Source: Antedon mediterranea
Taxonomy: Eukaryota; Echinodermata; Crinoidea; Comatulida; Antedonidae
Reading direction: 5' to 3'
Assembly: GCF_964355755.1 (NCBI RefSeq)
Contig: NC_092671.1
Location: 10,737,001 to 10,801,000, forward strand
DNA: 64,000 nucleotides
Of this stretch, positions 34,561-52,797 are shown in pieces. The position numbers and the translations under genes are program-made. Under the pieces are notes generated by a model, which was not told where the DNA came from, made no database searches, and saw only the letters and a list, made by a program, of their open reading frames with translations. Every line of letters starts with the position of its first letter. Position 1 is the first letter of the stretch.

Positions 34561-36144
34561 GGATTTGTTTATGCTGTTGTTTCTGGTTTCAAAACAAAAT
34601 GTGGAACAGGGTATAAAAATAACTGAGTTTCATTAAAATCGGTTAATTATCTGATATGGACCGTGATGCAAACAATGAACAGTAGGCCTATCATGGATAT
34701 TAAATTGATTTTTACTAGGCCTACCACACAATAAGGCATAGCTGATTTAATTAAGTCTTATCATCACTAAATGAAACATACAAGACATGACAAATGTTAC
34801 AATAAGAGATAAAAGGTAAGCATTATTAACAAAAAGTCAAACTAAATTGATTAATGAAATGAGGAAAAGAGACAAGTTTAAAAAGAAATATAACAAATCA
34901 CCCTCCTCTCAAGTCTCGAAGGAATTTTAAAAACAAAGACATTCGGTAAATTTGCTAATTAAAAAATGTAAAAAAGTGTATTTTGATGTTGATTTAAATG
35001 TTGTAAACTGGTTCAGAAATTATTTAACTGACCGTAACCATATAACAAATGTAAATGGCTTCTTCTCAGAATCATGTAACAGTGTCTATGGGATAACCCA
35101 GGGGTCTATCCTGGGCCTTTTGTTGTTTTTATTGTATATAAACGATCTTTCAGATGTTGTTAAACATGTTAAACTGAGTATGTATGCAGATGACACTGTT
35201 TTGTATTATATACTGTATATGTATATTACATATCTAAAGATCCCAAAAAAAATTGTTAACAAAATTAATATAATGGAAAATCAAAACTGTACTAGTAGTT
35301 ACTATAAAGTTATGTAAGAATGTAATAAATCAATTGAATTAAGTTTAGGCAGAACACATAAGTGTAATACATCTGCTATGATAATATTCTATATATGAAA
35401 TAATGCTAAACATAAGGTTATACCTATAATAAAGCCATACAATATAAAACTAACAAACAACTAGGCCTATACTAAAACTAGTAAATGATAGAAATAAATG
35501 TATTAGGGTAAAACATAGACTGAAACACACCAACATATAAGTAAACAAACACATGTAAATGGCCAACATAGTAAGAACAGAACTTTTAAGGTTTAGAAAT
35601 AGTGGAATGAAACAAATTTTATACAAGGCCAAAACATAAAAATTAGCATATAATGTGTGTATAATAACTATGTTAAACTGATTCGTAAATGTAAATAGGT
35701 CTATCAATGTGTGTATGGGTGTATATATTTGTAATGGATGTAAAATAAGGTCAAAAGAAAAAAGAAACATACAAATTGTGAGTACTGATTTAAAACATAA
35801 TAAAAGAAACAGCTAATTTGTAATACATTTCTTAATATAAAGTAAATTTAAATGATAAATAGTCGTACTTTTACTATAACTTGCAATAAACATAAAATGT
35901 ACGTTTTTAAAGCATACTTTTACTCCATCGATTTTATGTAGCCTACATGTATAGATATAGTGCCTTTTTAACTAATATATTGAATTTTATTACATTGAAT
36001 AAATTCATCTGGTTCCAAATAATATTTTTGTGGATTTTTACTTTTATGTTGAACCAAAACGAACGAAAAGGAATAAAATTACCTTCGTGACGTTTCGCCG
36101 ACAATCTGTCAGACCTAAAACAGCTGATACTCCTGGAAAATGAG

Positions 36145-37647
36145 GTGATGGTGTCTTTTGACGTCATCTCGTTGTTTACAAAAACACCCACAGGCCAAGC
36201 CTTGGAGGTTGTAAGATCATACTTGGAAAAAGATACAACACTACATAAGAGAACGAAATTAACAGTAGAAGACATCATGGAACTCATCTACCAGTTAATT
36301 AATGCGACATATTTCACATTTCAACAACAGATTTATGAACAGCACGAAGGTATTGCAATGGGATCTCCGGTAAGCACTCTGATAGCGAATATCTATTTAG
36401 AATGGTTAGAAGAGGAAGCCATTAAGAGCGCAGATAGAACCATCAAACCACGTTTTTGGAGACGGTATGTTGATGATGTTTTTGCCATTGTCCATAAAGA
36501 TGCACCTCTCCCCCTCAATCGCCATCTTGATAGCATTGACCCGTCGGGCAACATCAAGTTTACCACAGAAATAATGTCAGAGAAACAAATACCATTCTTG
36601 GACATGATTATCACGATTAAACAAGATAGAACACTCGCTACCAAGGTATACCGAAAACCAACTCACACCGACCAATACTTGGACTTCCACTCTAATCATC
36701 CCTTAGAACACAAACTAAGCGTGGTTAACACGTTAGTGAATAGAGCAGACACAATTGTTAGTGAAGAGAAAGATAAAAAACATGAGTTGGAACACATTAG
36801 AAAAGCATTGAAAATTTGTAACTATCCAAAATGGTCAGTAGACAGAGTCGTAAACAAGAGAAAAGAACAAAAGTCAAAAAACAAACCAGAAGAACGCCAA
36901 AGAAAGGAAATGGAGAAGATGAAAGCTCACATAGGTATCCCATACATACACGGAATTTCTGAAAAGATTCGACGCACTTTTGCTAAGCACAAAGTGAACA
37001 CTTTCTTCATTCCAAGTAATAAATTAAAAAATGGACTGGTCCACCCAAAAGATAGAATAAAAACGGAAGACATGTGCGGGGTTATATACGAAGTGAACTG
37101 TCTAAACTGTGAGAAAGTATATATAGGAGAGACCGGAAGGGCACTGAATACAAGAATTGGGGAACATAAAAAAGACGTATCAACACACAACCAAGTAGTT
37201 AGAACACGCGCAAATAGAAATTCTTCGTCCCAGGTTTTACATAAGTCAGCCATAACTGACCACGCTATAGGGAATGACCACGCTATAGGGAATGACCATA
37301 TTCCAAGTTGGAATGCGAGAGTTATTGAAAAAGAAGCACAGACAGACAAAAGAAAGATAAAAGAATCTATCTGCATAAGAAAAAGACCACATAATATCAA
37401 CAGAAACATTGGTGGGTATGACCTCCCACATACATATGATAGTTTGCTTGAAAAAGTTGAAGCAGGAGGGGGGGCCAGCGGAGACGCTCTATCGTCAATA
37501 CCAACCAGACGGCTGGTGGCGTTGTTCGTCACTTACAAAAAACCAGACCATTCCAACCCAGGCATTAGTCTGAAGCAGCTGACAGATTGTCGGCGAAACG
37601 TCACGAAGGTAATTTTATTCCTTTTCGTTCGTTTTGGTTCAACATAA
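36145..37647 (+). CDS. Penelope-like reverse transcriptase (5'-truncated) with GIY-YIG endonuclease
   Basis: An uninterrupted 500-codon frame. RT motifs: A, FDVISLFT (residues 5-12, catalytic D6); B, GIAMGSPVS (69-77); C, RYVDDVFAI with YVDD at 108-111. A thumb-like region follows (KIPFLDMIITI-type, KVYRKPTHTDQYLDFHSNHP). The C-terminal GIY-YIG domain has VIY at 313-315 and YIG at 326-328 with ETGRALNTRIGEHKKD. Such enzymes nick DNA and prime reverse transcription at the nick. The finger domain upstream of motif A is missing: frame-compatible sequence (LLENEV) runs only a few codons before the inverted end. The first in-frame ATG is therefore an accident of truncation. Residues past about 485 read through the terminal repeat. 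An 18-bp in-frame tandem duplication (DHAIGN twice) is at 37258-37293. Catalytic residues are intact but activity is unlikely without the fingers. Confidence 0.85.
   Translation: MMVSFDVISLFTKTPTGQALEVVRSYLEKDTTLHKRTKLTVEDIMELIYQLINATYFTFQQQIYEQHEGIAMGSPVSTLIANIYLEWLEEEAIKSADRTIKPRFWRRYVDDVFAIVHKDAPLPLNRHLDSIDPSGNIKFTTEIMSEKQIPFLDMIITIKQDRTLATKVYRKPTHTDQYLDFHSNHPLEHKLSVVNTLVNRADTIVSEEKDKKHELEHIRKALKICNYPKWSVDRVVNKRKEQKSKNKPEERQRKEMEKMKAHIGIPYIHGISEKIRRTFAKHKVNTFFIPSNKLKNGLVHPKDRIKTEDMCGVIYEVNCLNCEKVYIGETGRALNTRIGEHKKDVSTHNQVVRTRANRNSSSQVLHKSAITDHAIGNDHAIGNDHIPSWNARVIEKEAQTDKRKIKESICIRKRPHNINRNIGGYDLPHTYDSLLEKVEAGGGASGDALSSIPTRRLVALFVTYKKPDHSNPGISLKQLTDCRRNVTKVILFLFVRFGST
37564..37613 (+). ncRNA. 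Hammerhead-ribozyme-like motif at the PLE2 end
   Basis: Core box ctgaag(c) at 37570-37576 (consensus CUGANGA, the final A replaced by C). Helix II is gctgaca/tgtcggc (37578-37584 with 37588-37594, seven pairs, one G-U). gaaa follows at 37595-37598, a two-pair helix III (ac/gt) and the cleavage triplet gtc ending at 37602. Helix I pairs gt/ac and, past a bulge, atta/taat (37564-37567 with 37610-37613). Penelope-like elements are known to carry minimal hammerheads with very short helix III that work best as dimers. The core A-to-C change probably weakens cleavage. The inverted copy at 36,078-36,119 lacks nine bases between two ctga boxes. Confidence 0.55.
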
Positions 37648-38759: not shown

Positions 38760-41700
38760 TTACAAATTTATTGTGATATGTTGAGCGTTACTGACACATA
38801 CATTTTGTTTTCCAGTGATATTTAAATGCAATTGGGTACTTTCGATGGTTGTTGGTACGGCTTTTGGTTGATTATCTAATTCTTCTTTCTCTCCTTCATC
38901 TAACTCGTATTCTGTTTCTTCTTGTAAATGTGCATCATCATTCTCCTCATAACTGAACCAATCTACAAAAAACCCTCACATTTTATTATCAAAACAGTGA
39001 CAGAGACATTAACAATTTCTACACTGGTGATTGGGTGAGTTTGATTACCTGGCGCTACTTTATGTTGGTGAGTTCCCGCTAAAGCTGATATGCTTTGGCA
39101 TATCTCCACCTCTCGTACACATTCCTCCATTATCTTTGTGAAATCCTCATTTTCATCAACAGACGACATATGTAACGCAGCCATGTTGCAAACAGTCTTC
39201 TTCAGCTTTGCAGTGAATATCGATGTATCAAGGGCTCTAAAGAGCTTAATACAGGATAGCAGGTACCTAATATCTCTCATATGATTTTGGCCAAAGCGAA
39301 TATGACAGGCTGCCATAAATTTCATCATGAAGTCAACCATAAAATGTATGTAACCTTGCGAGATCCCTCTTCCACCTTCACCAAGATTGTTAATGTACTC
39401 TGCAACTTCTTCACTTGTTCTCATCAATGTACACCAGTCATCCGATCCATACTTAACTTGTTTAGGCCTAATGTTTGGCCTGTCATCTCTGATCTACAAC
39501 AGACAATATTTATAATTGAACGTAATTAAAACAAAATAAACTAGTGTTATGATAGTAGCCTATTTTTTGCTACAAAAGCTAACGAATGTATATTCGGCAA
39601 ACTATACCAATATATTACGATGTGTTCCAATTGGCCATGTCCAATTGGTAACCAAGTACCATTGTATACAGTAAAACAGGAGGTTTACAATGTTGCATGA
39701 TTGTTATCTAGCAGAATAAACAATTTATGGAATATATCATTATAACATACCTGGAAAAGTGAATCTACATATGTTTGCATGATGTTACTGGTTTTTCCGA
39801 AACGACGCATCATGTTCTTATGACTTGCAGCTACACCTTTCAAGGATTTCCAACAGTTTTTCAAAAGAGATTCATTTTCCTCTTTAGAAATATTATTATA
39901 ATGCATAAGATAGCGTTTGAATTCACTAGAAATATTTGTGATCATTCGGACTCTACAGATATCAGCACTGTTCTGTTTGTCTAACTCTGATAAAAAGTAG
40001 TTCATTCCTTTATAGCATCTGGCTTTGTAGTATAGTACAGCAAGTGCAAACAACATTCTCGGAAGGAGAGTTTTTGAAGAATCAAGCCAACCTAAAAAGT
40101 TAGTTGTAAAGACTTTGGTCAGAGGTACGGTACTTATAGAAATTAAGTTGTTTTACATTTGGGTAAATTATGATATTTTTATATTCTTGATCGTAAATAA
40201 TTAACTTCTGTTTCTGGTTGTTCTTCTCCCTCATTTGTCTATAATTTAGAACAATTGTATTTATTTTGTTTTATGTAATTTGGTTCTTATACAAACCTTC
40301 CTGGTTTGCAGAGACCACATTTCAAAAACAAAAACGTTGTATTTTCAGTTATATATTACAAAATTAGACCATTACGATAAAGTGTTCGATACCGAGGTAG
40401 ATAATTAAAATAAGATAACAGAATGCATGGTTACTTCATTTGTTTTGTTCAAACTACAAAATTGTTTCGTTTATGATGACCAGAGTATTATAGCTTGATA
40501 CTTATTTAATCACTATTTTGTTGGAAAAACAAAACATTTTTATTTTGGAACTTACGTCTAATTGATCGCTGCACTTGATCTTCTTGTAGTTTACCAGGCG
40601 CCTTTGCTTTGGCTTTCAGCATCACGAAACGTTTGCGATATCTATTCAATGATTCATAATGCAGAATCTCATTACTGCAAATAGCCGAAGACGAAGTTGT
40701 TATGAGTGATCCATAAACGTGTGCTTTTATATCTGCCCATACATCGGATTTTACCAGATAACTTTCGCAAAATGGGACGCACACCTGAATATAAGGCAGA
40801 AGGCGACTATGCTCGGTTGGAAATAATCGGTTTCTTGTGGCTACAAAGTTATGCATTATTGTTAGGAAAAGCAAGATATGGGCTTTCGATAAAGCCTGGC
40901 CTGCTTTTGGGAGACTCTCAAAGTATCTAACACACAGGTACGACTGATTTATCAGGTTATTCCAAGCTTTAGTCTTGGGACTAAGATCAGCACATTGGAA
41001 TAGCATATCCATTAGTGTGCGGAATTCCGTATTACGATTTTGCCCAATGTGTTCCATCATGTCATTATGGTCGTCAGCTAAAATCAAAAGGTGTCGATAA
41101 GTGGCAGTTTCTACGACAGTTAAGCCTTCCTTCTCAGGAATAGTGTTGCTGTAATCGACACAAGAATTGAATATATACGAAATATTCCCAGCAAACGCCA
41201 ATAAAATATCGCCAGATTGTTCAACACGGACGGCTTCTGAAAGTGATGCAACCATTTCATCTAAGCTAAGTATATGATATTGGTATATAGCAGCAGATAA
41301 AATTTTACTGATTTCTTCACCTTCACCAATAACGTGACCAACGTCAATCGGATGATTCCCTGTAGTATTTTTTCCCCTCCGCTTTCTTTCTACAACTGCA
41401 AAATAAGTAGTGTGAAAATAATAAATCAACCGTGTTATTCAGTGGACATTCTTATAGAATAAAGATTAATGACGAAAATGTGAAGCAGAATATCCTGAAT
41501 TTGGTCTCTGCGGATGTGTACACTCGATAATCAGAATTGTTTTCATTGTCACATTTTAGGTAAAGGTAAAGTCGAAACCTAAGCTAATGCTAGCGGCCGT
41601 GGTGCCCATCTCCATTTCTTTAGCGTTTGGGCCAGACTCCACTAAGTGTGTATGTTTGTGGGGGGTACGCCACTCCTCCCGCACAAACGAGTCTGATTTA

Positions 41701-44700
41701 CCTTCCCAGTACTTTTTACATACCAGTACCCATTTCTGTCACCTGGGTAGGGAGGAACAATGTGGATAAAGAATCTTGCTTAAGGACTCAACACTGCAGT
41801 GACCGACCGGGCTTGAACCAGCAACCTCTTGATTGCAAGTCCAATGCTCTAACCACTGCGCCACAGTGCTCCATTTTATCATTACACTATTCCATAATTC
41901 TATTATTATTTACTTCAGAATTTATTATTTCTCTTTTCGATATTCGCCTAATTATATCAAAATAAATGAATAAAGAATTTAACATATTGATTACATTATA
42001 ATACTTTATATACCTTTATGAAAATGTTGAAGTTGTTGACTCTCCCTAGCATTTTCTACGATTATGGATAGCTCTCTGCATACGTCTCTGTAATACTCAA
42101 GTTCTTTTCTGTTTTCTTCATATTCCAAATAAGCGGTCACCGGCCCATTTCCTATGCAAGCGGCTAAACTGAGTACCTTCATCTCGTAAACTTGATATTT
42201 CAGTTTACAAAACCATTTAGATTTGAATAGATCAGACTGTACTAATTGTACGTTGACACTTGCTAATTTTAGAAGACGTTCTTGGTTCGAAGGATCGAGG
42301 TGATTGTATACGCTCCAAACTTTACAAATAAGCACGACTGCAAGATGTACATAAAGACTCAAAATGCATTTACCGTCTTCATCGACACCAGGTAATATAT
42401 CGGAAACAGCTTCTTCGCTCTTGTCCAATAGTTTGATCCATTGTTCACTTCCGATTACCAAATCATCACATTCAAGAACACACCTTATCCAGTTTTTCAA
42501 ACCCTTGCTGCTAAACTTTTTCATTTTGGTCAATGTACTGCTACAATCCTTCCCGAGCCTTTTCAACATGTCGTAAAACTTGCTCTGCAGGTTACTTTCA
42601 TCATTCTCCAAATTAGCACGGTCATGAAAATCAGAAATTTCAGAATACGTAGAAGATATTTTGCATCCAATATTTAGTTTAAAATCAACTTGTTGTAGTT
42701 CTTCTTCAGCCTTCTCCATTGATTGTCTCATAGAAGTGAATCGATTTGAATAAAAATATTCGACGATTTTCGGGACAATCACGTTTAATGATTTTGTTTC
42801 GAGAAACTTCTTGTCAGATTTCGAACCAGTTCTGTCTTTCTTTCTGTAAGCAACCTCCACTTCTGTTATTTAAAATTGAAATTTTTTGTCTATAATTTCA
42901 GCTTGTATATTACATTTAAACTGAATATCTTCTTTTTTAAGACAAAATGTATAAATAATCATGTTAGAAAAACAGTATCGCTTTTTGATGATGAACAACT
43001 CTAAAATGTATATAGGAAATGTTTTTTTTTTATTTTGTATCTATTATGTTGTGTTTAGTTTTATGTTTTTTATGTAAAAGGGTCCTGCGAAAACAGAAGT
43101 GTAAACTTCTCTATGCAGGATCCTTGCCATCATTTATGCTATGAAACTGTATTTATAAACGATGAGTAAATAAATGTGAATTGAATTAAATTGATTAATA
43201 TCATGCAGTAATATTATAAAATATATTAATGTTTAAAAGTCTAAGAAATTGAGCTCACTATTATTGGGAACGAAATGCCATCAATTGAAAAGCTATAATA
43301 TTCTAACACGTACAGGCTCGGTATTCATGATTCACTACAATTGATTTTTGGTAAAATATATAATTAAATTTACATATTTAAAAAAAATCTAATAGTAATT
43401 TCTTAAAATGTATTCCTATGTTTCTGAAAATAACATTAGTACGCAAACAGTATGAATGCCAAGATTTACCTCTGACATATTTCTCCAATTGCCTCTGCTG
43501 TACTTCTGTACGTTTAGCAGTGATTTTAAAACGTAAACACTCAGCGTATATCTCTTCCAATCTTTGATTCAATTGATCAAAATCTGGTTTGAATTCTACA
43601 GCACTTAATCCGTCGTTTGATATTGTACAACCAAGACTAAGAACCATCATGTCATATGCTATTAATCTGATTTTACCGAAGTATCTAGAAGAAATAATAC
43701 CAGACTCCGACAATGGTAACGTATACGAAGCAAGACGCAGCAAGCCATAGAAATCCCATCTACACAACATATTTCTTAAAGACCATATCACAGATATGGT
43801 CTGCAGAATCATCAGAATCATTGATGTGTTGACTGTGCGCATTGCGCCCATTGGTTTAGAAAAGAAGTCGGTTAAATCAGTTGTTTTTCTGATAATCTGA
43901 TCCCACTCAGGCGATCCGTATTGCAGGTCAGCACCGAGTGCAATGATTTTCCGCAACTGATCAACCCATGCTGCGAGTGGGTCTATGGTATAGGACAGAT
44001 TCAACTTATCCAGTAACTCCTTGTAGCCAATGGAGAGTTTGTCGAACGCATCCAATGCAGTTTTGTTTAAACTCAAGATGTCGGTTATACTCGTATCAAT
44101 TTGGTCGTGAAGAGTACTGAAAGCATTCAGTGAAGTAAGGTTTCCTCCGAATACAAGTCTATATCTAAAAGATTTTGACCTTTCATCCAACTTCAACAAG
44201 GTTTCTTCTGCCTTTTGGTAATCACCTTTGTTAAAGTATGTGTTGGCTAACCCCACTTGAACTGCAAGAATAGATTCGTCTTCTGTTGTGTCTAAATCAT
44301 TTTTCATTTTTCTTTGTCGTTCTTCTAAATAAAAAAAAAAGATGTTGAAAGATTAAGAAACGACTTTAGAGCTGCGTCCAATAACCATAATAGGAAAAAC
44401 TATCTTAATATAAAATCAATACATCCTAGTTAGTCTGTTATTATATTACAAATATCCTGGTGATTGAAAAAACCTAGTAATTAATTGAATGAAAAATATA
44501 CAGTACGATGTGCTTCTAGTGTTATGTTTTACAGTAGCTCACCATCTGAAACCGATTGAAAAGATGATGCCCCTTGATTGGCTATATCACTGAACGTTTC
44601 CATCGACTGATTTTTTCTGGATTGTTTGGTGAGATCTCTTACATCATTGCCTTTTCTCTCTTGCTCACCGTTATTTTCTATCACATCTTCGGTATCTAAG

Positions 44701-47700
44701 GTCAAGATTAATTTACACTGTTTTTCAACATAATGTAATTTAATTTGGCATATAGAAACAACAACCTATTTATAAATAGTATTTATTATTTCAATTTATG
44801 TTTTGAACTGTGATTGTATAATGTGAATATATGGAGAAAAAAACTAAACAAATTTGTGTTGGTGAATATAATCAACTTCCAACCAACATTTCTCTTCTTT
44901 TACGAAGACAAATTGGCCTACACTTTGTATTAGTATTAATATGGATGGAGATATTTGGTGTACTTGCCTACAAAATAGTTTCATTATTGTTATATATTAC
45001 AGCCGATTCTCGCACGATATTATCGTAATTTTAAGATATTATATTAAAAAAGAACAAATAGCATCAAAGAAAATAATAAAGGATGGGTGATTCCCGCAAG
45101 TAAGAAAACAACAAAGTGATTTTAATGAAAATGCCAACCTTTTTTACTCCTTTTTCTATATTGTGTTTTACTAGTCGGCCAGTCTTGATTAAGGTACAGT
45201 TGTCAAGATACGAATACATAAGAAAAGAGTGTATCGTAAAATAAACATACAAATATTCACGAGGCCTATGGTTAGACCAGGAGCCCAGAGGGGTCAACCT
45301 AGCTGGAAAGTTAACCAATTTCTATGCATGTGGCAATTATCTACGTACATATCAATGTATGGAAATGACAGTCTGGCGCGTTTCTTTTGGTGGGTGTGGC
45401 TAGGAGGGACACTGTAAAGGGTAACAAAAATGAGCTAGATCAGCTGAAAAGTTAACCCCATGAAATATTTTGCAAATTGTTTGACATAGAATGAAATATA
45501 AGGAATGGCTATTGCCAGACGATTTTAGTGGTGGGGGGTGCCTGCCAGACCCCCATTCTGGAGGGCCAAAAATGAGCTAGATCAGCTTAAAAGTTAACCC
45601 TCTAAAACTGGTGGGAAAATGTTCAATAAACTCATAACTATCATGAATGACCATTGCCAGACATTTTCAGTGGTGGATTGTGCCCGCCAGACCCCGTCAA
45701 ACACCCCACCCACAAAAAATTGAGCTAGATCAGCTGAAAAGTTAACCCCATGAAATATTTTGCAAATTGTTTGACATAGAGTGAAATATAATGAATGGAC
45801 ATTGCCAGACGATTTTAGTGGTGGGGGGTGCCTGCCAGACTCCCATTTCTGGAGGGCCAAAAATGAACTAGATCAGCTTAAAAGTTAACCCTCTAAAACT
45901 GGTGGGAAAATGTTCAATGTACTCATAACTATTATGAATGACCATTGCCAGACATTTTCAGTGGTGGATAGTGCCCGCCAGACCCCGTCAAACACCCCCA
46001 CTCCCAAAAATGAGCTAGATCAGCTGAAAAGAAGCTAACCTTTTAAAACATGCTGTAGAATGTTCAGCATGATCCCTAGTATAATAAATGACCATTGCCA
46101 GACATTTTAAGTGGTGGATTGTGTCCACCAGGCCCCCTCAAACACCCAACCCCCAAAATGACCCAGATTAGGCCAAGGGTTAACCACTGTAAAACTGGTG
46201 GGAAAATGTGTAGTATACTGTCAAGGATATGAATTGTCATTACCAGACATTTTTATTTGCTCATTATAGAACCACCCCATCCATCCAACCCCTTACCTAA
46301 TTCACAAAAAAAGTAAATCAATTAGTCAATTGGTTTATGCAGTTAAAGGACTTATTTAGAAACTGACTTATCTTCTATAATGGTTCCCTAGAGAATAATG
46401 TTGTTGATTATCATCAACATTTCAAAACAAAGGCTTATTTTATTAAATGCATTTTGATTATGATAGAGAGTGGTACATCATATTTCAAAGTGCTACATCT
46501 GCCAAACGGTAACGGCGGACAAGATTGTATGTTAAGAGCGTTCAGTGAAATGATATGGTCAACTGTAAAGAATGCTGCTGCATTACGTAAGAAAATGAAG
46601 TCTGACAAACATGCTGATACAACAAACAAGGTTTTTCTTATGAAACAACCTAAAAATTCAATCAGCTATCACCCTTTATGTCATAGGTACAGTATTACAC
46701 TGCCGTGAAACAAAACAAAGTAGTGTCCTTCAGAAATCAGATGAGTGTGGCATGTTAAAGGGAACTTGCATATTTTGTGAAAAAGGCCGAAAAAATGGGA
46801 AAGAAGAGAAAAGGCTTAAGATAGCAGCTGTTTCTGGGTGCAAGTCACTTTCCCAGCAGGTAAAATTTAAAAAAAACCAACGTATCAATAGTCTAATTCG
46901 GTGTGGCGTTGATCTGCCGAGTTCAGTTCTTCTAGAAACTGATAAACATGATGGTTCAACAGAAGAGCATTCATCTTATTGAAGTAACACATCTTATGGA
47001 AGTCACAAAAGGGCATTTTCATCCCTACTGAAACCTATTGAATTATTATTAAGTATTGGGAAAACAACGAGCTATACTTGTCTCTGATTTGCTAAGCTTT
47101 TACAAAATCGAATTTGTCAATAATGGAGGAAAACTGATATCAACTCATATTCGTCCCAAAATCTTACAAGGAAAATTCAATAAAAATTTAAAGATGAAAT
47201 CAAAGTAAAACCTGCAGACAGACGAAGAGGTAACTTCATTTATAGATCACTTCTTCTAGGAGAAGAAGCCACTGCTCGACTTTATGATAATTCTGAACAA
47301 TATGTACAGAATAATAAAATAAAATGGGCTGCTCTTCATCTTAGATCTATAATCATGCAGCTCCCACAGACAAAGACCTGCTACAGTTCAAAACTTAAAA
47401 GAGTGTGCTGCCAAGATACCATCACAGTTAGAATTATTCTTTAGGATTCTTCTTGGTGGCATCGACCAAAATGCCAATGATGCAAACAAAGACAAGTTTG
47501 ATAGAAAGGTTATTTCCATTGCATCTGATGCCATCTATAATGTATCTCGTGGAACTGTGAAACCATGGAAACACACTGTCGTTGGTTTATGTTTTACATC
47601 TCTGACAGGATCAAAACTGGCTATGCAAATTTTGACATTGTATTAGTAGTGAAAGCAAAGGCCTTGAGACTGAGTTTGCCTATTCAGTTCAAGATGATGA

Positions 47701-50700
47701 ACGCGACGCCCCAGATGGTATCCGGCTTGACCCAACCTTGGCAACTGCATGTGTATGGGAGAATAATGATACAAATGTAGAAACACTTGATGGTAAAGAA
47801 ACTCTACACGCTACAGTTGGACATACATATCAGAATATATTGCATGACGACCAACTGCTCAATAGGAATACTATTGGATTTCGGGATGGTAGAAACAGGC
47901 GGAAATTTGTTGGAGTTGAAAGAGAAATACCACCTTTTAGGATAGGTATAAATAAAGCTTTGTTTATAAGTTCCAATGCCACATCAACTACAAATGTTAG
48001 AGAATGTAGTACAATCACTGACAAACCAATGGAATACCAAATACCACTGAAGGCATTGGATATGTATTGGTTTTGGAAACTGAATGATGGAGATACACCC
48101 CTACATGCCGGATTCATGAGCAAGTATATCAATAATCATTTACCAGTTCAGTGCATTTGCTACAGGGATCCTATATCAAAATCCCCAACAAACAATGATG
48201 TGGTTAGAGAGAGAAAATGATCCAGACTATGGCTATTGCCAAGGAAACTGGCCAAGACTATGCAGACAAGACTATGCAGTTGTGACATATGATTTGGCAG
48301 TAGCATTAAAAGCTTACTCCATACAAACAATACAATCCCCCCTATTTGATAAGCTTTTAGTATTACAGGGCAATTTTCACACAGAGTTGGCGTTCTACGG
48401 AGCAGTTGGAACGTACATTAACGACAGCGGTATCGAATATATTCTCCAAGAAGCAGATATCTTGGCTGAGGGGTCAATGATGGGTTTCATCAAAGGAAAG
48501 TTTTACAACAGGTGCACTAGAATTCACCAATTGCTTGCCAATGTCTTGGAGCAAAAGTTGTATAAACGCTTTCTTCAAGAAATAAATGCAGAAGATCATC
48601 ACACATTTCAAGAAATAATGTCAACTGCACCTTTGGACCCATCATTGATTGAAGAACATATATCGGATCCTGTTGTAAAATCACCTGCAGAAGTACGAGA
48701 ATTACTTCCAGTCAGTGCTTACTGGAAATATAGGTTCAACAGCACAATTCTGGGCTATTTACATTTTTCTTATTAATCGACTCCATAGAGAACTTCAAAG
48801 ATGTGTGAAAACAAATGATGTCACTGGCTACATTAATGTATTTCCAACCATATTATCTGTTTACTTTGCCCTGAACCGACCTAACTACGCCAGATGGGGA
48901 ACTCTATTCATACAGAAACTGAAAAACGTTGACCTAAAGTACTGGAAAAATGAGCATTTTCCATCAGACGTACAAATAAGCACTACAGTAGATGTTGACC
49001 TTTCCTTAGAACAGACGGTCAATCGTGATTCTTCTTCAAGTATGAGAGGGATTGTTGCCTTTCCTAATTCAGAAAATGCAATGCGCCAGTGGTCATTGAC
49101 TATGAGTCAACGAGCCATGGCAGTCACGGAGCTGAGAACATTTGCTGGTCTTGAATTAGGGGAAACTGCAACAGCTCAATGCCGTCCATCAAGAATAAAA
49201 AAGGACACATTGACAGTGAAACGGAAGAAACAGAGATTGAAGAATCAAGTGATTCTTCTGGCGATGCATGGAGTGAAGAGGAATATATGGATTAATTTAA
49301 GTAATTTGTGCAGAAAAGTCATAGCTTATTAAATAAGACTGTTTTTTGTTGTAACTAATGAAAACTACTGTAGATAGAATAAGGTACTACAGTATATAAA
49401 GTATCATATGCTAAAATGTCGGGTGTTTGATATTTGATGTAGTTCTCATTTTAGCCATTCATGCTGTTTTTTAGTGTACTTAATTGCTCCATATATTTTG
49501 TTTTATAAGTTTAGGTTTTGAGTTGATCTAGTTCATGTTTTTTTTTTTGGGCGGGGGGGGGGGGGGTGGGTGGGTGTTTAATGGGTGTCTGGCGGACACA
49601 ACCCACCACTTTAAATGTCTAGCAATGGTCATTTATTATACTAGGGATCATGCTGAACATTTTACAGCATGTTTTAAAAGGTTAGCTTTTCAGCTGATCT
49701 ACCTCAATTTTTTGGGGGTGGGGTGTTTGACGGGGTCTGGCGGGCACAATCCACCACTGAAAATGTCTGGCAATGGTCATTCATGATAGTTATGAGTTTA
49801 TTGAAGATTTTCCCACCAGTTTCAGAGGGTTAACTTTTAAGCTGATCTAGCTCATTTTTGGCTCCCCAGAAATGGGGGTCTGGCAGGCACCCCCCACCAC
49901 TAAAATCGTCTGGCGATATTCATTCATTATATTTCACTCTATGTCAAACCATTTGCAAAATATTTCATGGGGTTAACTTTTCAGCTGATCTAGCTCAATT
50001 TTTGGGGGGTTGGGTGTTTGACGGGGTCTGGCGGGCACAATCCACCACTGAAAATGTCTGGCAATGGTCATTCATGATAATTATGAGTTTATTGAACATT
50101 TTCCCACCAGTTTCAAAGGGTTAACTTTTAAGCTGATCTAGCTCATTTTTGACCCCCCAGAAATGGGGGTCTGGCAGGCACCCCCCACCACTAAAATCGT
50201 CTGGCAATGGCCATTCCTTATATTTCACTCTATGTCAAACAATTTGCAAAATATTTCATGGGGTTAACTTTTCAGCTGATCTAGCTCATTTTTTTTACCC
50301 TTTACAATGTCCCTCCTAGCCACACCCACCAAAAGAAACGCGCCAGACTGTCATTTCCATACATTGATATGTACGTAGATAATTGCCACATGCATAGAAA
50401 TTGGTTAACTTTCCAGCTAGGTTGACCCCTCTGGGCTCCTGCTCTAGGTAGTACATTGATGAAAATTAAAATGAAAGAGGCGTATTTTTCTATCACGTTT
50501 ACTTTACGAATTAGATGTACAATATCACAAGGTCTATCTGAATAAATAAAATAATTAAATTACCATGAAGTGTTGATTTTCTTTTTGAAGTGCTTTCAGC
50601 AAAAACATCTTCTGGAATACGAATACGACACATTATAACACACGTTTAACATAAAAAGGGTTAATCATTTTGTATATTAATAGTCTAATGTTCAGATGTT

Positions 50701-51878
50701 AATCAAACAGACCAAACAAATATAGACCTAATAATAAAGTGAATTCAAGGCAAATTACTGAAAAAATATATCAGTTGCTGGATGGCAATGGATACAAATA
50801 CATTAAGCAAAAAGCTAAATAAAAACATATAGCCAAAAAGAAAGTCAATTATTATATGTTACTTATAAGTTGTCAGGGTGTAGCTTACCTTCTTTACCAC
50901 TTTCTCTAGATTTCGATTTACTATGCAGCCAGTCTTGATCGAAGGTGCATTTGTGAAAGAAAATACATATAATTTTTAAATAGCGTATTTAAAAGCAAAG
51001 AAAATATATGTTTTATTTGGTAGTAGGCCTATAGTAATCTTGTATCGAGTTTACAAAAAATGTCCTAGATATAATCATGTAGCAATGCTTAAAGTAAAAG
51101 TGGGATACCGTGATGTGTTGATTGTCTTGTTGTGCTTTCACCAAAAACTTCATCTGGAATACGAACAAAAGTAACGACAAATTAAAACATACGTGGTTAA
51201 GTTCATATAAATATAAAAACCAAGTTATTTACTTTGAATAATTAGTTTGATATATATAGTGGGGGCTTTTAGGTCACATAGGGAGTTCACATTTTTGCAA
51301 TAGCAACAAATGGTGTGTGTTGGTTCTTCACCTCATACTCTTTCAATTTCTGCTGGGCGCCAAGAAATTTGACCTCAAGGGAGCACCTAATTTGCATAAT
51401 TAAAAATGGCGGCCATTTTTACAAAAAAATCCTAATATCTGTACAACCAATTGTCATAGAGTTTTGTTTTTTGTTGTCAAATTCTTCAGAGTAGTGACAT
51501 TACTATTTGTTCCAATGAAAAATTTGCAAGATTTTGAACGAAAATATCCCTAACTAACCCTACTAATAGGTTTAATTTGATTAATTTACCATGCTCCCCA
51601 AGCCGACGTGTTTCAACATTCAAATGTGGCTCTCTTCTTTCCGTCGGAACTCCAAGTCCTCTCCATCCATTTTGGATAAGTTTCTTCAGAGTTAGACGTT
51701 CAGCCAACTTAAGATTTGGAATAAGATCTAAACTGGCTTCATCAAGGTTGTAGAGTGATAAGATGTTTACAAAACCGGCTTCTTCTAATATATAAATAGT
51801 TCGTTGTTGCAAACGACATCTTTTCAACTCACGTCGCATGTCATTCAAATCAGCCCATTCATCTTCATTAGACGCCAT
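38760..51878 (-). CDS. Large SAM-like / helical-repeat protein with RHIM-like tail (12 exons, 1,385 aa)
   Basis: I do not recognise a named orthologue. Exons, 5' to 3': 51878-51590, 51153-51109, 50933-50889, 50611-50564, 45183-45139, 44695-44543, 44324-43470, 42862-42014, 41395-40556, 40091-39751, 39493-39049, 38962-38760. Every junction is GT/AG; all phases agree (4,158 nt), mostly phase 1. Residues ~25-70 look like a SAM domain (LEEAGFVNILSLYNLDEASL, KLAERLTLKKLIQ). Residues 97-157 come from four tiny exons, A-B-A'-B'. Four related helical modules follow: 209-493, 494-776, 777-1056 and 1057-1318. Each opens with a TPR-like hairpin (module 1: ANTYFNKGDYQKAEETLLKL) and has GS(P/E/D)xW in its middle (TKAW in module 3). 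An acidic linker precedes a C-terminal NVCVSNAQHITI resembling RHIM amyloid motifs. No signal peptide or membrane segment is seen. The product is probably an intracellular scaffold; function is inferred. Confidence 0.8.
41560..41872 (-). mobile_element. tRNA-derived SINE
   Basis: On the minus strand the tRNA-like head reads gtggcgcagtggttagagc (A box), ttggacttgcaatcaagag, then ggttcaagcccg (B box). It is followed by the conserved body tgagtccttaagcaagattc. The non-tRNA body and loss of a 3' acceptor stem show it is a SINE. It lies in the intron between exons 8 and 9 of the large helical-repeat gene. Short ORFs across it are not genes. Confidence 0.75.
43010..43205. mobile_element. LINE 3' tail fragment
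   Basis: agggtcctgcgaaaac and its inverted partner atgcaggatccttgcc precede aaataaatgtgaattgaatt, a tail repeating gaatt, which is typical of LINE 3' ends. It lies in the intron between exons 7 and 8 of the large gene. Confidence 0.5.
45275..46165 (+). repeat. FB2 left arm
   Basis: Inverse of 49,535-50,444. About six ~145-bp units; unit length varies by a few bases. Ends near ccaccaggccccctcaaaca, after which the two sides diverge. Confidence 0.85.
46440..49332 (+). pseudogene. Uncharacterised transposon-type protein, broken by several frameshifts
   Basis: Successive frames carry one protein's segments: a YHPLCHR box and GTCIFCEKGRK zinc-knuckle-like segment (46,650-46,800), FIYRSLLLGEEATARLYDNS (about 47,240), IASDAIYNVSRGTVKPWKHT (47,520), and VWENNDTNVETLDGKETLHA with TVGHTYQNI (47,750). 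Then come YGYCQGNWPRLCRQDYAVVT (48,220), GNFHTELAFYGAVGTYINDS (48,370) and SAYWKYRF/STAQFWAIYIFLINRLHR (48,715-48,790). The order resembles a family of unnamed proteins repeated in many invertebrate genomes that I associate with mobile DNA. At least four frameshifts separate segments. The D..H/E-rich middle might be an RNase H-like core, unproven. As the only coding sequence in FB2, it is the candidate source of the foldback family's transposase. Confidence 0.6.
49535..50444 (-). repeat. FB2 right arm
   Basis: Inverse copy of 45,275-46,165. Begins at a poly-G run (gggcggggggggggggg near 49,550) and ends GGGCTCCTGCTC before TA. ORFs 49535-50124 are translations of the repeat. Confidence 0.85.
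51240..51589. other. Intron 1 segment of the large gene, unexplained
   Basis: A locally less AT-rich stretch (ttaggtcacatagggag, gctgggcgccaagaaat, gcggccattttt) within intron 1 of the large helical-repeat gene. I find no partner elsewhere in the window and no ORF; it may be an old repeat. Confidence 0.3.
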
Positions 51879-52700: not shown

Positions 52701-52708
52701 AAAATCGT

Positions 52709-52797
52709 TGAAAACGACATCTTTTTAACTCACGTCGCATGTTATTCAAATCGGCCAATTCATCTTCATTAGACGCCATAGTTCGAGGCTTAGGCAT
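52709..52797 (-). pseudogene. Truncated copy of exon 1 of the large SAM-like gene
   Basis: The minus strand encodes MASNEDELADLNNMRRELKR and then CRF before it leaves homology. Exon 1 at 51878 begins MASNEDEWADLNDMRRELKR. The SAM-like part is absent. An upstream in-frame ATG would add MPKPRT. It is a partial tandem duplicate, not a working first exon. Confidence 0.8.

Follow-up and report, generated by a model that had tools for sequence, protein, structure and literature searches.

Two C-terminal ends on a shared four-module chassis in a clustered gene family of the crinoid Antedon mediterranea

A stretch of 64,000 nucleotides from the genome of the crinoid Antedon mediterranea (NCBI RefSeq assembly GCF_964355755.1, contig NC_092671.1, positions 10,737,001 to 10,801,000 of the forward strand; hereafter the window, with positions counted from its first letter) contains a gene that is real and intact and is a member of an unnamed family. 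The window gene (P1) and its paralogues share a chassis made up of a small head, a linker and four homologous modules. On this one chassis two C-terminal ends are found, each carried on an exon of its own: a Death domain in three of the paralogues (P3-P5) and a short tail in the window gene and its sister P2. Where this difference is called a swap below, the word names the difference between the ends and implies no direction of change. It is on balance probable that these genes encode a clustered family of intracellular signalling scaffolds in which the C-terminal assembly element differs between the branches.

A single cluster with two kinds of C-terminus

When the head and the remainder of the protein were each used to search the assembly (354 Mb in 18 contigs), matches were obtained at five loci, all of which lie within approximately 260 kb of contig C2 (Table 1). 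In this and the other genome searches only the best candidates were scored; on that basis the scaffold family is found in only one cluster of this genome, and the sole match outside it had an E-value of 1.19. P4, which is the only Death-domain paralogue to have been spliced (P3 and P5 being treated as unspliced sequence), gives from eight exons one open protein of 1,448 residues. When the window protein was compared with P4 by BLASTP, residues 1-1284 aligned collinearly with residues 1-1303 (29% identity, E 2e-153); the alignment fades approximately 20 residues before the end of the last module exon in each protein and past that exon there is none. The best P3 match of each of the first three modules (M1, M2 and M3) and of exon 9, which encodes the first part of M4, is the equivalent module, and M1 shows 34% identity with M1 of P3 as against 21-23% with the second modules. 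Because the full-length alignment is collinear, the module array most likely predates the duplications that gave rise to these paralogues.

In each of P3, P4 and P5 the fourth module is followed by a Death-domain exon, and all three of the exons tested scored over the Pfam cut-off for Death (PF00531; 22.6 bits), with 34.4 bits (E 2.4e-8) for P5, 32.7 bits (E 8.5e-8) for P3 and 29.9 bits (E 6.2e-7) for P4. A 17-nt microexon, for which both acceptor and donor are seen in the alignment of the three loci, links the fourth module to the Death domain and takes the frame from phase 1 to phase 0. In searches of the PDB with the paralogue Death domain the top rows were MyD88 and FADD, at weak E-values (0.03-0.14). 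The paralogues thus resemble the Death-domain adaptors, from which the window gene differs in having no Death domain; such a chassis is not known in those adaptors. A second, degenerate Death-domain-like stretch that contains a stop is present downstream of the Death-domain exon of P4 (L013:1064-1287).

In the window gene and P2 the place of the Death domain is taken by an acidic exon ending in a short beta-type tail, and the splice sites of this exon are kept in both. By tblastn at E up to 1 the window contains no Death-domain match, nor does the P2 sequence as far as about 1 kb beyond the P2 tail, and Pfam found none in the window protein. A vestige of the domain downstream of the window gene was considered and rejected, none having been found by tblastn.

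Gene model

The window gene runs on the minus strand from position 51878 to position 38760 in 11 exons, every intron being GT..AG, and when spliced gives an open frame of 1,370 residues with no internal stop. The exon junctions are in phase 1 throughout except for that between exons 9 and 10, which is in phase 0, and all 11 exons have a DNA match in P2, some of them partial (exons 10 and 11, for example). The initial annotation of the window had described twelve GT/AG exons encoding 1,385 residues; its coordinates, strand, open frame and splice sites are retained here, and its exon number and protein length are revised. The revision concerns the 45-nt stretch at 45139-45183, a diverged copy of exon 3 whose addition would reproduce exactly the earlier counts. 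This stretch was left out of the gene model because its donor (GTTGGC) is weak and because P2 matches it best in exon 3, leaving it without a separate counterpart there. Approximately 0.9 kb upstream of the gene lies a truncated copy of the first part of exon 1.

Residues 97-193 form a linker that includes the duplicated short exons. Exons 2 and 4 each match the other's counterpart in P2, in agreement with the repeated linker of the initial annotation. A Pfam scan of the whole 1,370-residue protein returned seven families at E up to 10, none of them over its cut-off, and a weak SLATT_1 row was taken as chance. Head and module sequences and profiles gave nothing significant against the PDB, where no profile match was better than E 0.15, and the earlier statement that the protein matches no known family is upheld by these searches.

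Table 1. Features of the window gene (window positions) and paralogous loci (contig positions)
Feature	Position	Strand	Remark
Exon 1	51590..51878	-	Start codon and small helical head (possibly SAM- or helix-hairpin-helix-like), residues 1-96
Exon 2	51109..51153	-	Linker exon, 15 residues, copy a
Exon 3	50889..50933	-	Linker exon, 15 residues
Exon 4	50564..50611	-	Linker exon, 16 residues, duplicate of exon 2
Exon 5	44543..44695	-	Linker, residues 143-193
Exon 6	43470..44324	-	Helical module M1, residues 194-478
Exon 7	42014..42862	-	Module M2, residues 479-761
Exon 8	40556..41395	-	Module M3, residues 762-1041
Exon 9	39751..40091	-	M4 first part, residues 1042-1155
Exon 10	39049..39493	-	M4 second part, residues 1156-1303
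Exon 11	38760..38962	-	Acidic linker and short beta-type tail; stop codon 38760-38762; Death domain in this place in paralogues
Degenerate exon 3 copy	45139..45183	-	Weak donor; excluded from exon count
Transposable element in intron 4	45273..50446	.	Long inverted ends; outside protein
Truncated duplicate of exon 1 start	52707..52792	-	93% identical over 86 nt
P2	Contig C2, 10.807-10.814 Mb		Tail-bearing sister of window gene
P3	Contig C2, 10.983-10.988 Mb		Death-domain paralogue
P4	Contig C2, 10.994-11.000 Mb		Death-domain paralogue
P5	Contig C2, 11.023-11.033 Mb		Death-domain paralogue

The transposable element in intron 4 is approximately 5.2 kb long, with inverted ends of approximately 0.9 kb whose main arms are 88-96% complementary. 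The ends are built of tandem units (approximately 145 nt, or 291 nt) and coding stretches are present on the plus strand; a Pfam scan of three frames at E up to 0.1 was negative. Further copies, some nearly identical and others diverged, are spread over the genome, and a 218-codon piece of the coding region had at least 68 genome matches, counted among the matches listed on C1-C11 of the 18 contigs only. Beyond the 3' end of the gene an open frame of 518 codons (36091-37644) has weak reverse-transcriptase and GIY-YIG matches, both below cut-off, and resembles a Penelope-like element.

The four-module array

Residues 194-1303 comprise four homologous modules of approximately 280 residues each, of which M1-M3 occupy one exon each and M4 two. 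In pairwise BLASTP comparisons the lowest E-values were those of M1-M2 (4e-14), M3-M4 (1e-12) and M2-M3 (7e-10), followed by the weaker pairs M2-M4 (6e-7), M1-M3 (4e-6) and M1-M4, the weakest (0.009). The module alignment A3 contains 15 of 19 module sequences, omitting M4 of P1, the M3 piece and M4 of P2, and M4 of P5; a remnant of M2 in P5 is in neither the set of 19 nor the alignment. A structure model of M1, built on an alignment of M1-M3 only, is all-helical (pLDDT 69, pTM 0.65). The four helical modules of the initial annotation are therefore recovered, as homologous repeats by BLASTP and as modules of helical type by the M1 model.

The best Pfam row for the protein is TPR_8 at residues 218-243, in M1 only, with 16.4 bits against a cut-off of 25.7; TPR repeats are below cut-off in the window protein and for the four P3 modules there are none at E up to 1. 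With the module model the best Foldseek E-value was 0.26. TPR-type chains head the structural list for the M1 model (VIA-align; families missing from this list are not thereby excluded), with a Z-score of 9.9 and an rmsd of 3.7 over 148 residues to 2hr2, a Z-score that falls inside the chance range for helical models. The likeness to TPR and other alpha-solenoid proteins (LGN, kinesin light chain, Rap/NprR, STAND sensors) thus consists in the all-helical model, the weak TPR match and the leading TPR-type rows, whereas the size of the modules, their number, the scarcity of TPR signature and the chance-range score set the window protein apart. The array may be an alpha-solenoid with a ligand- or partner-binding role.

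The structural rows for M1 include LGN, kinesin light chain, and proteasome and intraflagellar transport (IFT) subunits, and helical-repeat scaffolds are common outside immunity. These points would fit a TPR-like scaffold for structure or trafficking that is uninvolved in immunity and cell death, in which case the paralogues would use their Death domain for something else. We regard this as rather improbable, given that the Death domain of the paralogues is over the Pfam cut-off and that the genes form a clustered set with broken copies, an arrangement more typical of immune families.

The head

The head had been described earlier as SAM-like. Its identity as a SAM-like or helix-hairpin-helix domain is plausible and remains unproven. 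No Pfam SAM match was found for the window protein or for the four heads scanned, and the head profile gave no significant match in the PDB; among its 21 sub-threshold rows NusA, DisA and RNA polymerase alpha are mixed with leucine-rich-repeat proteins, AF-9 and others, and the majority are leucine-rich-repeat or other proteins. The structure model of the head is of low confidence (pLDDT 51), and of the 11 Foldseek rows obtained with it 10 are entries for RAD51 or its paralogues, with E-values no better than 4.4. Some of the NusA, DisA, RNA polymerase alpha and RAD51-type entries contain domains in one fold class with SAM, and it is in these sub-threshold rows that the likeness to SAM and helix-hairpin-helix domains lies; the want of a significant match and the low pLDDT are the points of difference. 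LRR_EndoS was weakly matched by two of four heads, those of P3 and P4 type (best E 0.0048), and these rows were taken as chance.

The short tail and the amyloid question

Residues 1304-1370 consist of an acidic linker followed by LNITGKQN-VCVSNAQH-ITINL. The tails of the window gene and P2 are 41% identical; upstream of the last residues they share conserved I, G, C and Q residues together with a TTIE run, and the two proteins end in ITINL and ITINM. Three hydrophobic pairs occur at eight-residue spacing in the window tail. Shuffling produced this strict octad pattern 282 times in 200,000 trials with the window tail exon and 336 times in 200,000 with its last 30 residues. The P2 tail fits a looser spacing only, which was also shown by 3,578 of the 200,000 shuffles made of that tail. 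In background open reading frames (at least 40 codons; drawn from the window together with 14 loci, with neither overlapping loci nor the window gene removed) the strict pattern was seen 162 times in 81,824 residues, and in 18 of 1,276 frames it lay within three residues of the end; it is also present once in the body of the window protein. The spacing was rejected as proof of amyloid, being not rare in background frames and only loosely fitted by P2.

Proteins with a RHIM (RIPK1, RIPK3, TRIF and ZBP1; PF12721) are resembled in so far as the window tail is a short C-terminal element with three hydrophobic pairs. The window tail may be placed in the RIPK3 RHIM register without gaps. In one account the RIPK3 RHIM core comprises three beta segments, and its tetrad, (V/I)-Q-(V/I/L/C)-G, lies in the middle (PMC9444067). 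This tetrad is absent from both tails, the window tail having VCVS in register and P2 having FQIG in another register with F in first position. Pfam returned no family at E up to 10, the RHIM included, for either 30-residue tail, and among the best candidates scored in the whole genome there were three weak RHIM matches, none over cut-off and none in this cluster. RHIM membership was rejected on the missing tetrad and the lack of a profile match. PDB searches gave two unrelated matches at E 1.3 for one tail and none for the other. Protein searches for partners that share the tail recovered each tail itself and nothing else; because neither search recovered even the other paralogue's tail, the absence of partners is uninformative. 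A weak Pfam row for E7 (E 0.009) in the acidic tail exon of P2 was taken as chance.

The amyloid-like tail of the initial annotation is thus not established, there being no tetrad, no RHIM profile match, a spacing that is not rare in background frames and weak constraint (see below). A RHIM-like cross-beta tail may still be entertained as a somewhat doubtful possibility. The tail could instead be no more than a short linear motif of an ordinary kind, such as a class II PDZ ligand, by which the scaffold would be tethered to a membrane or junction complex without cross-beta stacking. The ITIN(L/M) run at the very end of both proteins, which is well conserved and fits the class II PDZ pattern, would agree with this, as would the lack of RHIM and relevant PDB matches for the tails. 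We nevertheless consider a linear motif unlikely, in that the conserved I, G, C and Q and the TTIE run sit upstream of the last residues and the three octad-spaced pairs are unusual among shuffles of the tail exon, though not among background frames.

Constraint and the state of the cluster

Comparison of exons 5-10 between the window gene and P2 shows 10 gaps, two of them at the ends of the supplied P2 stretches. Six of the other eight are multiples of three and two are frame-breaking (2 nt in exon 5 and 4 nt in exon 8). Since P2 has these two frame-breaking length differences, any comparison with it brings together functional sequence and sequence that may be decaying. The ratio of non-synonymous to synonymous substitution rates (dN/dS) between the two genes is 0.54 in M1, 0.36 in M2, 0.35 and 0.37 in pieces of M3 and 0.30 and 0.37 in pieces of M4. 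Between P4 and both P3 and P5 it is 0.22-0.54 in near-complete modules, and for the head, compared with P3 only, 0.11.

Several observations weigh against a family of signalling scaffolds with differing assembly elements. P2 is frame-broken in the assembly and the tail-bearing branch therefore rests on one intact gene. The head dN/dS between the window gene and P2 is 1.04, with a dS of 0.11 as against 0.41-0.80 in the modules; this low dS may reflect a recent exchange between the two genes. The tail exon as a whole has a dN/dS of 0.58 against P2; restricted to the last 30 comparable codons the ratio is 0.83, and to the last 21 it is 0.57. On the Death-domain side, P5 is without a head match, has only a partial M2 and carries between M3 and M4 a long open frame of long interspersed nuclear element (LINE) type (L011:96-3353, judged by eye), and the junction after M4 of P3 is out of phase as assembled, with one extra base in an A run. 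The best matches of exon 10 in P3-P5 fall outside their fourth module. To these may be added the chance-range Z-score of the M1 model, and the assignment to a pathway would derive entirely from the Death domain of the paralogues.

Some of these observations would also be accounted for if the tail-bearing branch were decaying, the window gene being a relic whose Death-domain exon is gone and whose frame runs into a meaningless last exon: P2 is frame-broken, head and tail are under little constraint and a large transposon sits within intron 4. This we think very unlikely, as the window gene is open across 1,370 codons, dN/dS against P2 is 0.30-0.37 across M2-M4 and the splice sites of the tail exon are kept in both genes.

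Proposed function and significance

In the scaffold reading that we favour, the module array would hold a ligand or partner and the head would self-associate, helping the scaffold to oligomerise. The C-terminus would then recruit or nucleate a higher-order complex, by means of the death fold in P3-P5 and of the short tail in the branch of the window gene, where nucleation might be cross-beta, by homotypic pairing. An innate-immune or cell-death output is proposed because Death domains are assembly modules in the pathways of innate immunity and cell death. The initial annotation had suggested a signalling scaffold of this kind; the Death-domain exon of the paralogues strengthens the suggestion, the pathway still being inferred from that exon.

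A more specific idea is put forward tentatively, and we consider it doubtful: that on one and the same four-module solenoid a RHIM-like amyloid tail has come to replace the death fold, so that sister proteins would read the same kind of signal and nucleate different polymers. If true, it would be a natural domain replacement in a metazoan protein with no relationship to the RIP kinases, and would show that death-fold and cross-beta assembly elements can functionally stand in for each other. One study reports RIPK1 of Ambulacraria to be without a RHIM (PMC11507063), and another calls it an open question whether the RHIM is the only metazoan signalling amyloid (PMC7889193). This suggests that there is room for a signalling scaffold of the kind proposed here, to which the links of both studies are loose. 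In nemerteans a RHIM is reported not to have been detected (PMC9835746). No title matching this architecture came up in the literature searches made, which is not proof of absence.

The family presents a new Death-domain protein architecture, the remaining parts of which were over no Pfam cut-off in the scans made. If the tail is a mere linear motif the family would still be new, though as a clustered signalling scaffold of a more ordinary sort. What surprises is the presence of alternative ends on one chassis, rather than the amyloid claim, and members with a Death domain and members with a beta-type tail would together provide a clean paired test of whether the two elements can replace each other.

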